Below, in pieces: positions 30,196 through 37,035 of a stretch of 42,454 nt of DNA. The stretch is from Actinomycetes bacterium. Its GTDB lineage: Bacteria; Actinomycetota; Acidimicrobiia; Acidimicrobiales; Palsa-688. The notes beneath the pieces were generated by a model. That model had not been told where the DNA came from. It searched no databases and saw only the letters and a program-made list of their open reading frames with translations. The stretch is from the NCBI GenBank assembly GCA_021799445.1, contig JAJZAM010000006.1, positions 1-42,454 of the forward strand, read 5' to 3'. Position 1 is the first letter of the stretch, and every line of letters begins with the position of its first letter. Both the position numbers and the translations under genes were made by a program.

Positions 30196-30573
30196 TTACA
30201 CGCTGACGATTGCGAGATCATTGTCGAGGCGGCGGATATCGTCGGGATCCGAGGTGATCACTCGACCATGATGACTCCGTGCGGCGATGACCACGGAGGC
30301 GTCGACGATGTCTGAGATGCCAGTTGTCCCGCACAGCTGTCCAGCGGCCCGAGCAGCGTGATCGTCGAGGGCGAGTACCGTGCAGATCTGCGAGCCCAGA
30401 AGCCGGGCCAAGCGCGTCTGGCGTCGACCGTCCCTCCATGTTTGGGCTACTACGCCGGCGGGCACGACTAGGGGGTCGTGGTGTTTGAGCGCCCGAGCCA
30501 CGATTGCCACCACGAAGCGGTCGTTTCGCTCGAAAGCGATGAGTGCACCGGCGTCGAGGATCGCTGTGCTCAC
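30196..30573 (-). CDS. vapC: PIN-domain ribonuclease toxin (VapC-like)
   Basis: A 125-residue PIN-domain protein. The acidic metal-binding residues are in ILDAGALIAFER (Asp7, Glu15), ISDIVDASVVIAA and ITSDPDDIRRL. VapC toxins cleave tRNA or rRNA using Mg2+ or Mn2+ and are neutralised by a partner antitoxin. The gene overlaps the antitoxin gene by 4 bp (ATGA-type junction) on the minus strand. A perfect 7-bp stem (CGTCAGC/GCTGACG, 30187-30208) overlaps the stop codon, without a T-run that would make it a clear terminator. Confidence 0.92.
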   Translation of the reverse strand: MSTAILDAGALIAFERNDRFVVAIVARALKHHDPLVVPAGVVAQTWRDGRRQTRLARLLGSQICTVLALDDHAARAAGQLCGTTGISDIVDASVVIAARSHHGRVITSDPDDIRRLDNDLAIVSV

Positions 30574-30800
30574 CGGCCGAGTGCCTCGTCGGCGGCCTGG
30601 GTTTCCTCGTCCGTTAGGGGACCACCGGTCTCGGCGAGCATTTCGTCGAGAAGAGAGGCGAGGTCATCAAGCTTTGTCTGCTCTTCGAGGGCATGAGCTA
30701 CGTAGGCGCTAACGCTCGTGGCTCGACCTTCGGCCACTGCGTGCTGTGCATGTGCGACGAGCTCCGGCGGGAGGCTAACAGCAATTTTAACACTAGTCAT
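30570..30800 (-). CDS. vapB: Ribbon-helix-helix antitoxin (VapB-like)
   Basis: A 76-residue antitoxin. VKIAVSLPPELVAHAQHAVA and SVSAYVAHALEE form a ribbon-helix-helix DNA-binding fold. The acidic C-terminal half (LDDLASLLDEMLAETGGPLT) would wrap the toxin. Two ATGs are possible, 30812 and 30800; the second begins just before the first strand as in relatives. No ribosome-binding site is at the right distance, but AT-rich -10-like sequence lies a few bases upstream, so a leaderless mRNA is possible. It precedes and overlaps the PIN toxin gene. Confidence 0.85.
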   Translation of the reverse strand: MTSVKIAVSLPPELVAHAQHAVAEGRATSVSAYVAHALEEQTKLDDLASLLDEMLAETGGPLTDEETQAADEALGR

Positions 30801-30840
30801 ACCATTGATCATACTATCTAGAGCTGCTTCCTCCGATGGG

Positions 30841-30869: not shown

Positions 30870-30905
30870 ATATAGTCTCGATAACCCACATTATCGAGAC
30901 TATAT
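30870..30905. repeat. Dif-like site 1: perfect 15-bp inverted repeat with 6-bp spacer
   Basis: ATATAGTCTCGATAA, spacer CCCACA, TTATCGAGACTATAT. The arms are perfectly complementary. The inner layout (11-bp arms ending ATAA and starting TTAT around a 6-bp centre) is that of XerCD/dif recombination sites. It lies between the divergent VapBC and Xre-RES pairs. A degenerate copy with the same spacing lies at 32092-32119 before the tyrosine recombinase gene. It could instead be an operator; there is no T-run for a terminator. Confidence 0.65.
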
Positions 30906-31083
30906 TGGTCCAGCACTGCCGCCCCAGGGGCCACTCATACAACGAAACTCCGAAAGCTCCGCGTCACTGACCGACACGCTGGTGGCGGCCTAAGGCGGGT
31001 GGCCCGCCGCACGGCACGCCCTGGAGGCCCCCTCCGCAGGGACACCACCTATAGCTCCGAAACGGCGAGCAGACCTCTGCCTA

Positions 31084-31122
31084 GCCCAATGAGATTCGTT
31101 GGGCGGGAACTATGCTGTTTGT
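31084..31122 (+). promoter_or_regulatory. Inverted repeat and leaderless-type promoter of the Xre-RES operon
   Basis: GCCCAA (31084-31089) and TTGGGC (31099-31104) form an inverted repeat with a 9-bp centre. TATGCT at 31110-31115 lies 7 bp before ATG 31123, the spacing expected for a leaderless transcript. The repeat probably binds the antitoxin for autoregulation. Confidence 0.5.
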
Positions 31123-31509
31123 ATGCCAGCCCGTGCCGCTAGGACCGCCACCGAACCCAAGGTTCGCTTCGAAGGTTTCAACGCAGGTATCGAAGCAAAA
31201 GTCGACCGGCTAGTGGCCGTGTACGGTGTCAACGGCCTCGCCTCTCTGCTCGTCGTTTCCGCGTCCCAGCCCACCCGGTGGCGCCAGGGCAAGGAACGCC
31301 CAGGCGAAACGGCGACCGGGCGGCTATTGGCCTTGGAGTACCTGACGTCGCGGCTCGCTGAGGTGTTCACTGCTCGCCAGGCCCAGGCCTGGCTGACCAG
31401 CCCCAATCCCTATCTGGGGGGGTCGACTCCCGCCCAAGTTTTCACCGACTTCGGCGGCCCGGCTGTCGAGGTGGCTATCTCCGCCGTCGAAGTCGGAGCC
31501 GCTGTATAG
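31123..31509 (+). CDS. Xre/MbcA/ParS-type antitoxin (DUF2384)
   Basis: A 128-residue protein of the antitoxin family paired with RES toxins. The N-terminal part (VDRLVAVYGVNGLASLLVVS, ASQPTRWRQGKE) is the helix-turn-helix-like region. The C-terminus has TARQAQAWLTSPNPYLGGST and PAQVFTDFGG, the conserved NPYLGG.P core of the MbcA/ParS domain that blocks the toxin's NAD site. The ATG at 31123 is preceded by a -10-like element only, with no ribosome-binding site. It is followed after 3 bp by the RES toxin gene, with a hairpin across the junction. Confidence 0.88.
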   Translation: MPARAARTATEPKVRFEGFNAGIEAKVDRLVAVYGVNGLASLLVVSASQPTRWRQGKERPGETATGRLLALEYLTSRLAEVFTARQAQAWLTSPNPYLGGSTPAQVFTDFGGPAVEVAISAVEVGAAV

Positions 31510-31524
31510 GCGGTGCGCCTATAC
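31504..31524 (+). promoter_or_regulatory. Perfect 9-bp hairpin across the antitoxin stop and toxin start
   Basis: GTATAGGCG, loop GTG, CGCCTATAC. The antitoxin stop codon TAG (31507-31509) is in the 5' arm and the toxin start codon GTG (31513-31515) is exactly the loop. It is likely to couple toxin translation to termination of antitoxin translation. Confidence 0.65.
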
Positions 31525-32070
31525 CGGGTTTGCCCAATCGATCCCGCCGCAGCGAGAGGAAACCCGTATCATCCCGGGTTCGTTCCCCGGTCCACCGGAC
31601 AGCACCGCGTCGACAACCCCGACCGCTACAACACGCTGTACCTGGCGGGCTGCCCCGCAGGGGCTGTCGCAGAACGTTTCGGTGCTTTCGCCCACTGGGG
31701 CGACTGGCTGCTGGAACACCCGAGAGGCTTCACCGCCCGGCTGATCACCTTCGACCTGTCCGACGACCGTCGAGTGCTCGACCTCGACAGCCCTGACGAG
31801 CTAGCGGCCAGAATGCTGCGCCCGTCGCGGGTAGTGACCCGTGACCGGACCACCACCCAGGCTTGGGCCGCCCGCGTACACGACGAGGCTCGCTGGTTTG
31901 GGGTGTCATGGTGGTCGTTCTACAATCCGGAGTGGACGGCCTGCGGGCTGTGGAGCCCGCCGGACGCGACCACCGTCGAGGGACTCGCAGTGGTGCACGT
32001 CGAAACGTTGGACGGCGACCATCCGGCCGTCGTCGAAGCTGGCCGCTGCCTCCTCCGGCGCTGGACCTGA
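31513..32070 (+). CDS. RES-domain toxin (MbcT-like NAD+ phosphorylase/glycohydrolase family)
   Basis: A 185-residue RES-domain protein. It starts MRLYRVCPID, with R, E and S family residues in RYNTLYLAGCPAGAVAERFG and later in WAARVHDEARWFGVSWWSF. Family members such as M. tuberculosis MbcT deplete cellular NAD+. The GTG start at 31513 lies 3 bp after the antitoxin stop, lacks a ribosome-binding site and is inside a hairpin loop, so translation probably depends on ribosomes finishing the antitoxin. The pair lies between two dif-like sites and just upstream of a tyrosine recombinase gene. Confidence 0.9.
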   Translation: MRLYRVCPIDPAAARGNPYHPGFVPRSTGQHRVDNPDRYNTLYLAGCPAGAVAERFGAFAHWGDWLLEHPRGFTARLITFDLSDDRRVLDLDSPDELAARMLRPSRVVTRDRTTTQAWAARVHDEARWFGVSWWSFYNPEWTACGLWSPPDATTVEGLAVVHVETLDGDHPAVVEAGRCLLRRWT

Positions 32071-32091
32071 CTCGACGAGGCTTAGGTATGA

Positions 32092-32119
32092 CTTCTCGAT
32101 AACGAGGATTATATAGACT
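32092..32119. repeat. Dif-like site 2, immediately upstream of the tyrosine recombinase gene
   Basis: CTTCTCGATAA, spacer CGAGGA, TTATATAGACT. It matches site 1 at 9 of 11 positions in each arm, with the same 6-bp spacing but a different spacer sequence. It ends 11 bp before the recombinase ATG and overlaps a probable -10 region (GACTAT), so binding by the recombinase could also repress its own gene. Confidence 0.6.
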
Positions 32120-32130
32120 ATTGTAGGGCG

Positions 32131-33168
32131 ATGGCCGCCACCCGACGATTGTCTCCTGAGGCTCGCCTAGCGGAGGTCGTCGACAGCTGGCTGTTCCATC
32201 TGGGCGCTACTAAGCCGTCACCGCGCACTCTCGCCGCTTATCGTGCTGACGTCGAGGGCGTCGCCCGGCGTATAGACGCTGAAGGGGCGGCCGTTTTGGC
32301 CATCGAGGATTTGACGAAGCGGGCTTTGCGGGCCGCGTTCGCTTCGTGGGCGGCCGACCACGCAGCGTCCTCGGTGCTACGCGCTCACTCAGCGTGGTCG
32401 TCACTGTTTGATTTTCTCGTGGCCGAGGACCTCGTCGATGGCAACCCGATGTCTGCCGTGGGTAAACCCCGCCTGGCCCCGTCTGCTCCCAAAGCCATCA
32501 AAGCCGACGACGCAGCCGGCCGCCTTCTCGCTACAGCCTCAACCGCTGACAGCACCGCCAGGGACCCCTGGCCGGAGCGTGACACGGCGCTCGTCGCGCT
32601 GTTCTTGGTGTCAGGCATCCGCGAAGGAGAAGCCGTCTCGCTCGGCATGGCGTCCATTGCCGGTCCGGTGGGCGCCCGGCACCTAGAAGTGACCGGTAAA
32701 GGTAACAAGACCCGCTCCATCCCCATCGACCCGACCCTCGAAGAAGTCCTCGCCGCCTACCAGATCAGCCGGGCCGCCCGCTTCCCCGAACATGACCTAG
32801 ACCACCCGGCCACTCCCCTGCTCGTAGACACCCGAGGACGCCGCCTCGCCGCCCACCAAATTCGCTATCTCGTCGAACGCCTCTACACCAGAGCCGGCAT
32901 CCGCTCGCGGATACCCGCAGGGGCGATGGTCCACGCTCTGCGTCACAGTTTCGCCACAGACGCCCTCCAAGCTGGCGCCGACGTGGTGGAGCTCCAGGCC
33001 CTGCTCGGGCACGCCTCGCTTGACACCACGCGACGTTACCTCGACGCAAGCGGCGAAGGCCTCAGAGAGGTCATCAAAAGCCACCCGAGCCAAACCGCGC
33101 TACGAGAACACACACGCAAACAACAAAGCCGGCGATCGCCGCCCTCACCCATCCCCCAGCCGAGCTAG
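32131..33168 (+). CDS. Tyrosine recombinase (XerC/D-like integrase)
   Basis: A 345-residue recombinase with a complete active site. The N-terminal core-binding (SAM-like) domain covers about 10-110 (SPRTLAAYRADVEGVARRI). The catalytic domain has Arg164 (SGIREGE), Lys190 (VTGKGNKTR), His268 and Arg271 (HALRHSFAT), His294 (LGHASLDTTRRYL) and the nucleophile Tyr303. Length and layout are like XerC/XerD, which act on 28-bp dif sites. A dif-like site lies just before the ATG and a related one beyond the Xre-RES pair. There is little sign of a ribosome-binding site (TAGGG). The C-terminal tail after Tyr303 is basic and somewhat longer than in Xer proteins. Probably part of a mobile module rather than the housekeeping XerC/D, though this cannot be excluded. 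Confidence 0.92.
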   Translation: MAATRRLSPEARLAEVVDSWLFHLGATKPSPRTLAAYRADVEGVARRIDAEGAAVLAIEDLTKRALRAAFASWAADHAASSVLRAHSAWSSLFDFLVAEDLVDGNPMSAVGKPRLAPSAPKAIKADDAAGRLLATASTADSTARDPWPERDTALVALFLVSGIREGEAVSLGMASIAGPVGARHLEVTGKGNKTRSIPIDPTLEEVLAAYQISRAARFPEHDLDHPATPLLVDTRGRRLAAHQIRYLVERLYTRAGIRSRIPAGAMVHALRHSFATDALQAGADVVELQALLGHASLDTTRRYLDASGEGLREVIKSHPSQTALREHTRKQQSRRSPPSPIPQPS

Positions 33169-35106: not shown

Positions 35107-36147
35107 TTGGGACGAGTGTCAATTCCGGTTTTGCTCACCTCAGCAACCACACCCTCGATGGGCTCGATGGGTGGCATGCGGCCCGTCGCGTTCAGCTGGC
35201 ACGCAGCTCTGACGGACTGGCAGACAGGTCCGTTCCCGCTGGTGACTGTGTTGGTGCTCTGCGCCGTTGCCTACTGGTACCTTCGATCCGACTGGCGCCT
35301 AGCGGGCCGAGGACGGCGCTGGCCGGCTCGGCGGACCGCTGCGTTCATGGCCGGCCTGTTCAGCGTCGACCTGGCTGTGCAGTCCCCTGTAGCGACGTTC
35401 ACGGCGTCTTACTTCCAGGCTCACGTCATCCAGCACCTGCTGCTGATGGTCGTAGCCCCTCCACTTTTGGCCCTCGGCGCTCCTTCCACCCTTCTTTTGC
35501 AGACCTCCTCCCGGAGGGTCAAGACGGCGTGGCTGAAGGTCCTCAAGTCCCGGGGTTTCGCCGTGCTCACTTTCCCCGGAACGGTTTTCTGCCTGTATTT
35601 CGGGGTGATGTTCGCTTTCTTCCTCACGTCTTTGATCAACACCGCGATGCTTCACATGTGGCTCATGGACGTGTTCAACGTCGTCTTCTTCTTCGGTGCG
35701 ACGTTGTACTGGTGGCCTCTGGTTGGGCTCGACCCGATAGTGCACTGGCGTATGGGGTACGGCGCCCGGATGCTAAGCGTCCTTCTGGGAGGTCCACCGG
35801 AAGTGATCCTCGGCTTGGCGATCCTCTCTTCGAGCCATCCCATCGCTTCGATGTACAGCCTCGCCAGCACACGCGCAGGCGGCGGAATGCTGTGGGTGGC
35901 GACCGAGGCGTCAGCCCTGATCGGTTTTGTGCCGATCTTCCTGCAGTGGGCTAGAGCCGACGAGCGGGCAGCCAAACGAATCGACGAGAGTCGAGCAGTT
36001 CGTTCGAACAACCTGGCGGGTCACTCTCTGCCGACCGCGTCCGCAACGCTCAGCCCCGACGACGAAGCCTGGAAGGCGTACTGGATGGCCCGCGCTGGCA
36101 CCGTCCCCTCGACGCAAGAGTGGGTACCTAACGCACCCCACGAGTGA
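35107..36147 (+). CDS. CtaG-type cytochrome c oxidase assembly protein
   Basis: A 346-residue multi-pass membrane protein of the caa3 CtaG family, which helps insert copper or assemble the CuA/CuB centres of heme-copper oxidases in Bacillus and actinobacteria. Hydrophobic helices lie at about 40-57, 78-95, 107-127, 157-178, 190-210, 228-250 and 265-285. Conserved features include FQAHVIQHLLLMVVAPPLLALGAP, LHMWLMDVFNVVFFFGATLYWW (in adjoining parts) and a His/Met-rich N-terminus (TTPSMGSMGGM). The start is uncertain: TTG 35107, GTG 35116 or ATG 35158, none with a strong ribosome-binding site. No oxidase genes are in the window. Confidence 0.9.
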   Translation: MGRVSIPVLLTSATTPSMGSMGGMRPVAFSWHAALTDWQTGPFPLVTVLVLCAVAYWYLRSDWRLAGRGRRWPARRTAAFMAGLFSVDLAVQSPVATFTASYFQAHVIQHLLLMVVAPPLLALGAPSTLLLQTSSRRVKTAWLKVLKSRGFAVLTFPGTVFCLYFGVMFAFFLTSLINTAMLHMWLMDVFNVVFFFGATLYWWPLVGLDPIVHWRMGYGARMLSVLLGGPPEVILGLAILSSSHPIASMYSLASTRAGGGMLWVATEASALIGFVPIFLQWARADERAAKRIDESRAVRSNNLAGHSLPTASATLSPDDEAWKAYWMARAGTVPSTQEWVPNAPHE

Positions 36148-36348: not shown

Positions 36349-37035
36349 CTACCCCCTCAGGGACAGAAACTCGACCGTTCCAGCTAGGAACCTGAAGTCC
36401 TTGGGCGTTGAGAAGTGGTCCGCGCCGGGCATGTTGACCAGGCGGGCGTCGGGCAGGCTGGCGACCAGCTCGGTGGCTGGTCCGGCGAAGTCACGGTCCC
36501 CGAGAACGACGAGCACGGGACAGGTGACCTTCGACAGTTCAGCAGGGCTAAGCGGCGAGCTTGGACGCCGCAAGCAGGCGGCTAAGGCAGCCGGGTCGTT
36601 GTCGGGTGAGCGAGCGAACCTGGCGAAGGCTCCCGCGGCTTGGTGGTCAGCGTCGCCGGGTGAGCCCGTTTCAACGGCCCGGGCGAGGGTCTCGGCATCC
36701 GACTCCCGAAGAGCGCTGTCGCCGACTCCTCCGATCACGATCCGCCGAAAAGCCGCCGGGCGTTTGGAAGCCACCCGCAGAAGAAGCTGACCGCCCATGC
36801 TGAACCCTACGGCGTCGACCAACGGCTGAGTCTCCAGCACGTCTTCTATAGCGCTCGCGATGTTCGTGTACGCCCCAGGATCCGTTGGCTTGGGGGACGT
36901 GCCATGCCCGAGAAGGTCCACTCCGATCACAGCTCGTCCCTCGTCCTCCAGCACGCTCACCCAGCCCGGTTCCCGCCAGTTCCGTTCGAACGACGAGGCG
37001 AAGCCATGCACCAAAAGGACAGGGACGTCGCTCAT
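36349..37035 (-). CDS. Alpha/beta hydrolase
   Basis: A 228-residue hydrolase. It has the oxyanion loop VLLVHGFASSF, a nucleophile elbow VGFSMGGQLLL (Ser in G-F-S-M-G), the acid in VLVVLGDRDFAGP and the catalytic histidine in GADHFSTPKD. This is the full triad of small esterase or lipase-like proteins, with a short cap. The substrate is unknown. It is divergent from the gene at 37088; the 52 bp between them must hold both promoters. Confidence 0.9.
   Translation of the reverse strand: MSDVPVLLVHGFASSFERNWREPGWVSVLEDEGRAVIGVDLLGHGTSPKPTDPGAYTNIASAIEDVLETQPLVDAVGFSMGGQLLLRVASKRPAAFRRIVIGGVGDSALRESDAETLARAVETGSPGDADHQAAGAFARFARSPDNDPAALAACLRRPSSPLSPAELSKVTCPVLVVLGDRDFAGPATELVASLPDARLVNMPGADHFSTPKDFRFLAGTVEFLSLRG

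Follow-up and report, generated by a model that had tools for sequence, protein, structure and literature searches.

Gene content of the locus

The DNA analysed here, called the window throughout, is a contig of 42,454 nucleotides (JAJZAM010000006.1; C327 in our numbering) from an actinobacterium of the order Acidimicrobiales, whose assembly (GCA_021799445.1; genome G000) spans 3.0 Mb in 332 contigs and is 76.6% complete. Our subject is a tyrosine recombinase gene in this window, together with two dif-like palindromes upstream of it and the toxin-antitoxin (TA) operon that the palindromes enclose (Table 1). A preliminary description of the sequence had read this arrangement as an integron-like cassette that carries its own recombinase. 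The evidence presented below leads us to regard the locus, with considerable confidence, as one of chromosome dimer resolution, in which a single Xer works without XerC and XerD on a dif of its own, with FtsK guided by the motif GGGGGAG.

Site 1, ATATAGTCTCGATAA-CCCACA-TTATCGAGACTATAT, is the perfect inverted repeat first described, with arms complementary at 15/15 positions; its 11-6-11 core, AGTCTCGATAA-CCCACA-TTATCGAGACT, is nearly symmetric. Site 2, CTTCTCGATAA-CGAGGA-TTATATAGACT, matches site 1 at 9/11 positions per arm (18/22 in total) and ends 11 bp before the ATG (32131) of the complete recombinase gene. This copy and the mismatch between the two spacers were likewise confirmed. In 60 first-order Markov sequences of the window's size and composition, searched for arms around spacers of 4 to 8 bp, no perfect arm was longer than 12 and no match to the arms of site 1 went beyond 16/22, as against 15 and, for site 2, 18/22 in the window; both sites exceed chance expectation. 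The pattern CTCGATAA-N6-TTAT occurs in the whole assembly at sites 1 and 2 only.

The two genes between the sites are adjacent and both of their domains score above the Pfam cutoffs, which identifies them, as previously proposed, as a type II TA pair of the Xre-RES kind; the NCBIfam Xre_ParS model stayed below its cutoff (35 of 90 bits). Translation of Xre probably starts at the ATG at 31123 rather than at the TTG at 31099. On the far side of site 1 lies a divergent PIN-domain pair, the smaller protein of which gave no significant match in the Pfam scan. PADLOC returned no match for the seven window proteins submitted.

Table 1. Features of the window around the two dif-like sites
Feature	Coordinates	Strand	Remarks
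PIN-domain (VapC-like) toxin	30196–30573	−	Pfam PF01850, E 2.1e-7
Small protein, partner of PIN gene	30570–30812	−	Resembles an antitoxin in position and by eye
Site 1, perfect 15-6-15 palindrome	30870–30905	+	28-bp core 30874–30901, spacer CCCACA; probable chromosomal dif
Exchanged TA block	30939–32080	+	92–96% identity to congener G254; flanks less similar
Xre-family antitoxin	31099–31509	+	Pfam PF09722 (Xre_MbcA_ParS_C), E 3.6e-6
RES-domain toxin	31513–32070	+	Pfam PF08808, E 1.2e-8
Site 2, second dif-like site	32092–32119	+	Spacer CGAGGA; direct orientation relative to site 1
Lone Xer tyrosine recombinase	32131–33168	+	345 aa; Pfam Phage_integrase/SAM
ctaG	35107–36147	+	Marks the surroundings of the chromosomal dif; likewise close to the site in G253 (match) and G252 (by eye)
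Alpha/beta hydrolase	36349–37035	−	Neighbourhood marker

A lone Xer in place of XerC and XerD

The recombinase combines a SAM-like with a catalytic domain, as simple tyrosine recombinases do. The residues R164, K190, H268, R271, H294 and Y303, which correspond to the catalytic residues of the family, are invariant across the 17 rows of the alignment. Its best-scoring NCBIfam models are XerC (179 of 335 bits) and XerD (148 of 330 bits), both below the equivalog cutoffs, and it falls far under that of XerS (83 of 267 bits). An integron was considered and rejected: the IntI model gave 55 of 265 bits, and the assembly holds only the two palindromic sites, attC itself not having been searched for.

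Among 248 genomes of the order, relatives at 42–82% identity were found in 19 further genomes, belonging to families f1, f17, f40 and f41. A contig scan gave 42 relative loci, 35 of them titled Acidimicrobiales, Acidimicrobiia, Acidimicrobiaceae, Acidiferrimicrobium or Actinomycetes. No relative was found by tblastn in viral contigs, nor at ≥60% identity in plasmids and phages, where those found lay below that level.

Within the window's own family, the enzyme is present in 17/32 genomes (G000 itself, the rest at 57–93% identity), and its distribution is complementary to that of the classical pair. None of the 17 yields an XerD-model match above 188 bits or a recognisable XerC or XerD, while 13 of the other 15 do carry such proteins (XerD in 10, at 298–338 bits; XerC-type in 10, at 226–272 bits). 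The remaining two, G255 (61% complete) and G259 (75%), have neither a lone Xer nor an XerC/XerD-type match. Genomes at least 90% complete divide into nine with the lone Xer and five with XerCD. Beyond the family, the 16 genomes of f40 (six), f17 (seven), f41 (one) and f15 (two) that carry relatives gave no match above 192 bits. The canonical actinobacterial dif, searched for with ≤3 mismatches to its consensus, occurs in 6/32 family genomes, one of them doubtful (G266), and in 0/17 of those with the lone Xer. In the tree, a branch separates the lone Xers from XerC and XerD together (94/94, slightly below the mark for strong support); the XerCD row L123 is very long, and L139 and L160 are also long.

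We conclude that the recombinase is the lone chromosomal Xer of an Acidimicrobiales clade and is not cassette-borne. The preliminary description had itself contrasted its cassette with a chromosomal dif served by a sole housekeeping Xer, and the latter is essentially what we find. The gamma domain of FtsK was detected in 14/17 lone-Xer genomes; the search did not find it in G000, G252 and G261.

Some relatives lie outside this picture. In the tree, the recombinases of G257 and G263 (L112, L111) stand next to the lone Xers of f17, and they are possibly mobile relatives; the relatives in G055 and G037 lie at loci L024 and L025. The f17 genome G166 has a 232-bit match without a close relative. 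A metagenome-assembled genome (MAG) titled Solirubrobacteraceae carries a 51% relative (L139). The gene upstream of it (upstream of 5001) looks, on inspection by eye, similar to the DoxX-like neighbour of the G041 recombinase (L051:10273-10851), which may reflect horizontal transfer or mis-binning. In a Thermomicrobiales-titled MAG (L150), the frame of a 69% relative looks broken, and a TAGTC...GACTA palindrome with another spacing lies just upstream.

A conserved dif-like site upstream of the gene

The proposal that the palindromes are sites of the Xer/dif type, served by the adjoining recombinase, gained support from their linkage across the family. The pattern GATAAC-N4-ATTAT lies on the recombinase's contig in 14/17 lone-Xer genomes, always upstream and in the same orientation, at distances of 11 bp to 12 kb. 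Of the other three, G253 and G265 have the site on another contig, and in G270 none was found. A few matches occur elsewhere (e.g., G137:C22). In G041, a genome of another family, a site lies 1.3 kb upstream of the recombinase gene. The family consensus is ATTACGGATAA-CTGTGA-TTATCCGGAA (18 sites, excluding the second sites of the window and of its congener G254). All listed spacers read C-N4-A in the direction of the gene, site 2 included; the genome search left the spacer C and A free, and the compiled list imposed them except for G000 and G254.

In G252 and G069, which represent two genera, the site is followed by genes for an SDR, a QueA-family and a winged helix-turn-helix (HTH) protein and then by xer (L132:2285-6002; L053:8886-12842), an order established partly by eye, with Pfam support for the QueA and winged-HTH genes of G252; this suggests that the recombinase is part of a housekeeping gene run. 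A protein sharing the N-terminal motif of the window's hydrolase is seen by eye near the site in G189, G137, G164 and G069.

In families f40 and f17, the palindromes tried as dif candidates were rejected as GC-rich or coding. In f15, a conserved GGCGATAA-TTCTGC-TTATGG (L026:1245-1272, L027:2542-2569) lies just upstream of a 37–38% relative in two genomes that have no XerCD-level match, and is a candidate dif. The site patterns also matched 114 and at least 120 stretches in viral contigs, which we put down to chance, though without a control; of the loci L227-L306, drawn from the first set, two had family-like spacers.

Convergence of a G-rich motif near the site

If the site is a dif, oriented motifs should converge on it. 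FtsK-orienting motifs are discussed for the XerS system (PMC5357621). A polarity scan of 8-mers was run on contigs of G041 and G234. That of G041 pointed to CGGGGGAG, and GGGGGAG was chosen from this contig and then examined in four others. Left and right of the site, the counts on the two strands were +69/-25 and +11/-57 in G041, +23/-6 and +15/-62 in G234, +57/-11 and +3/-13 in G189, +11/-4 and +6/-28 in G164, and +13/-3 and +0/-12 in G069. The interval of the switch contains the site in G234 (100,748–109,598; site at 107,043), G189 (194,199–198,364; 196,039), G164 (51,639–54,729; 52,088) and G069 (52,774–54,330; 52,841), and it lies ~4–5 kb from the site in G041 (345,713–347,125; 341,910). 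Polarity thus reverses at or within ~5 kb of the site in 5/5 testable contigs, the contig of motif discovery included (pooled, left +173/-49 and right +35/-172), and Fisher p values at the site range from 3e-4 to 2e-8 in the four others. The XerCD genome G213 has 41 copies left of its dif (+38/-3) and 0 right of it. With variants of the FtsK-orienting polar sequences of E. coli, neither G041 nor G234 showed a clear switch. By analogy, GGGGGAG behaves in an FtsK-guide-like manner, as would be expected of an orienting motif around dif.

These data also bear on the idea that the palindromes serve as operators, for the TA pairs or for the recombinase gene, and not as recombination sites. Such a role would fit their positions: site 1 precedes the small gene of the PIN pair by ~60 bp, and site 2 precedes the recombinase start by 11 bp. 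We nevertheless consider it highly improbable, given that spacing, C-N4-A spacer and orientation are constant over 14 genomes while the distance to the recombinase ranges from 11 bp to 12 kb and the neighbours vary, and given the switch in GGGGGAG polarity at or near the site in five contigs.

Exchange of the toxin-antitoxin segment

The gene order of the window (site 1, Xre-RES, site 2, recombinase) recurs in G254. Nucleotide identity between the two is 96% over 31056-32080 and 92% over 30939-31055, compared with 88% in the recombinase and 79–84% further right. Synonymous divergence (dS) is 0.069 for Xre and 0.081 for RES, against 0.432 for Xer (320 codons) and 0.581 for CtaG; a BNR-type open reading frame was left out, as its non-synonymous proportion of 0.67 and undefined dS indicate a probably wrong frame. 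Because dS is so low in the TA genes (0.07–0.08) and so high in their neighbours (0.43–0.58), the Xre-RES segment was exchanged horizontally after the species split, and its neighbours were not. A separate exchange history for this segment, as the preliminary description had suspected, is thereby borne out. Such a history between two Xer sites is also characteristic of dif modules and of integrative mobile elements exploiting Xer recombination, with the reservation that the ends of the block lie near the sites and not at them. A part for Xer itself in moving the segment is putative.

Xre-RES and the site do not depend on each other's presence. Of 397 genomes of the order, 14 have RES relatives; within the sample searched from the window's family, three do (G000, G254 and the XerCD genome G015). 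Around the RES of G043 (74%), the nearest one beyond the genus, no dif-like site lies within 1.5 kb before or 0.5 kb after the gene. In the congener G253, the Xre-RES DNA has no match, and the site lacks an adjoining Xre-RES, but this genome differs in both recombinase type and TA pair, and its contig stops 1 kb further along.

Other TA-like pairs lie at these sites. Left of site 1, where the PIN pair of the window points away, G254 has a different small pair that points towards the site, one member being ribbon-helix-helix-like (E 0.013) and its partner PIN-like by eye without a Pfam match. A Phd-PIN pair adjoins the site of G253, and a PemK/MazF-like gene lies ~0.8 kb from that of G260. TA-like pairs were thus noted at 4/15 site loci inspected, a count that is not an enrichment test. 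Near the G041 site is an HTH gene with a metallopeptidase-like partner.

Some of this speaks for a mobile element, be it a cassette or integron-like, that supplies its recombinase, has an attachment site next to it and carries the TA genes as cargo: two direct dif-like sites enclose the TA genes, the dS of these genes is 5–8 times below that of their neighbours, and three congeners each have a different TA-like pair right beside the site. Yet the recombinase is present in 17/32 family genomes as opposed to three with RES in the sample searched, the Xre-RES pair is unmatched in G253, xer closes a gene run that begins at the site in G252 and G069, and in relatives the FtsK-guide-like motif converges at the site or close to it. 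We therefore judge this explanation unlikely, and for the recombinase it is largely refuted.

Proposed dimer resolution by a single Xer

For the preferred reading, chromosome dimer resolution by a lone Xer, the genomes offer one Xer-type recombinase without XerC/XerD, a dif near its gene and, in relatives, the position of that dif at the convergence of FtsK motifs, all of which are features of single-recombinase systems; XerC, XerD and the canonical 28-bp dif of the XerCD system were not found alongside. We infer that the lone Xer would bring the two dif copies of a dimeric chromosome together at the septum and, as catalyst, resolve the dimer, with FtsK reaching dif along GGGGGAG-oriented DNA. 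The working dif is most likely site 1, site 2 being a diverged second site beside the gene, and the differing spacers of the two would keep the TA segment from loss.

The roles of the sites could be reversed, with site 2 as the working dif and site 1 a later arrival with the TA segment, an assignment that we treat as possible but rather doubtful. Site 2 adjoins the gene, and its spacers in the window (CGAGGA) and in G254 (CTAGGA) are close to the family's CGATGA and CTATGA. On the other hand, the 28-mer of site 1, spacer included, is identical in G254, which keeps site 2 as CTTCTCGATAA-CTAGGA-TTATCACAACT, with a right arm that differs between the two species. Site 1 is also closer to the G041 site (21/28 versus 16/28 positions; their spacers differ at one position, CACACA in G041), and none of the recombinases found beyond the genus is nearer than that of G041.

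Several observations weigh against dimer resolution by a lone Xer. The Xer/dif function is a predicted one, and the window genome is 76.6% complete. Scoring for XerC/XerD covered part of the candidates in G260 (52 of 104) and G248 (52 of 53), and G269 was classed as XerCD on a single 226-bit match. Four genomes (G257, G263, G055 and G037) combine XerD or XerC-type proteins with 39–43% relatives, so that the wider recombinase family is not exclusive of XerCD. The pattern search gave no palindromic site of this kind in G270, and the f40 and f17 genomes showed no recognisable dif close to the gene. GC skew is weak, without a switch at the site in G041 or G234. Permuted G-rich control motifs show the same lean as GGGGGAG in the five pooled contigs, albeit more weakly (the strongest, GGGGAGG, left +148/-94 and right +89/-170), and the window's six copies of GGGGGAG are too few for testing its own sites. 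Finally, the exchanged block begins 33 bp after site 1 and stops 11 bp short of site 2, and stretches of 135, 135 and 83 bp are additional in G254; since the block ends inside the sites and G254 has these additions, the ends are not exact Xer crossovers.

A possible replacement of enzyme and site within the genus

In G253, recombinase (57%) and site (ATTACGGATAA-CTAACA-TTATCCGCAAT) are both of the type common in the family, whereas the recombinases of its congeners G000 and G254 group with that of G041 from another family (82% identity). The site and ctaG diverge in G252 and G253; in G000, site, xer and ctaG share one direction. These differences suggest a joint replacement of enzyme and site in G000 and G254. 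As both components of these two are unlike their G253 counterparts in type and fall together with the G041 ones, a portable dif-TA-xer module may have displaced the resident dimer-resolution system, an idea that we put forward only tentatively; neither the G000 nor the G254 assembly yielded an enzyme or a site of the resident type. If true, an addictive TA pair between the new dif and the new xer would help to fix the swap. In G254, the contigs C79 (L037, low end) and C177 (L063, start) overlap by ~125 bp in the 3′ part of the recombinase gene with two differing positions, which may reflect two alleles or strains in this MAG.

Relation to known Xer systems

The locus resembles XerS/difSL of streptococci and lactococci and XerH/difH of epsilon-proteobacteria, in which a single Xer replaces XerCD and dif lies near the gene. 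It departs from difSL, a 31-bp site with an 11-bp centre, in its 11-6-11 layout with nearly symmetric arms and in its phylum. With XerCD and the canonical actinobacterial dif it shares the core geometry and the ATAA...TTAT inner ends; the difference is that XerC, XerD and that canonical site were not found in the lone-Xer genomes. Accessory genes between Xer sites are also reported for the dif (pdif) modules of Acinetobacter plasmids, and TA genes are mentioned with them; those modules use host XerC/XerD on plasmids, unlike the window locus, which includes a lone chromosomal Xer and its own dif.

A single recombinase is likewise reported for XerL/dif of the Legionellales and the element LME-1, which integrates at dif and is flanked by an intact and a modified dif (PMC9765430). 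The flanking sites of that integrating mobile element differ in their arms; in the window, where a TA operon is all that lies between the sites, the spacers differ as well, and integration is putative.

XerCD/dif counts as near-universal in Actinobacteria; Kono (2011) reported a predicted dif in 66/66 single-chromosome genomes (PMC3025954). Among the matches listed in our search of the open-access literature, XerS, XerH, XerA and XerL are present and a lone Xer of Acidimicrobiales is not, and no paper linking this group with chromosome dimers was found there. In this acid-loving actinobacterial group, the usual two-enzyme XerCD machine appears to have been replaced by one enzyme with its own palindromic site, which would make this a new single-recombinase Xer/dif system to set beside XerS, XerH and XerL. 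The presence of both states in one family provides a natural comparison for the loss of two-enzyme asymmetry while FtsK is kept, and a TA operon swapped beside dif links chromosome segregation with cassette exchange.

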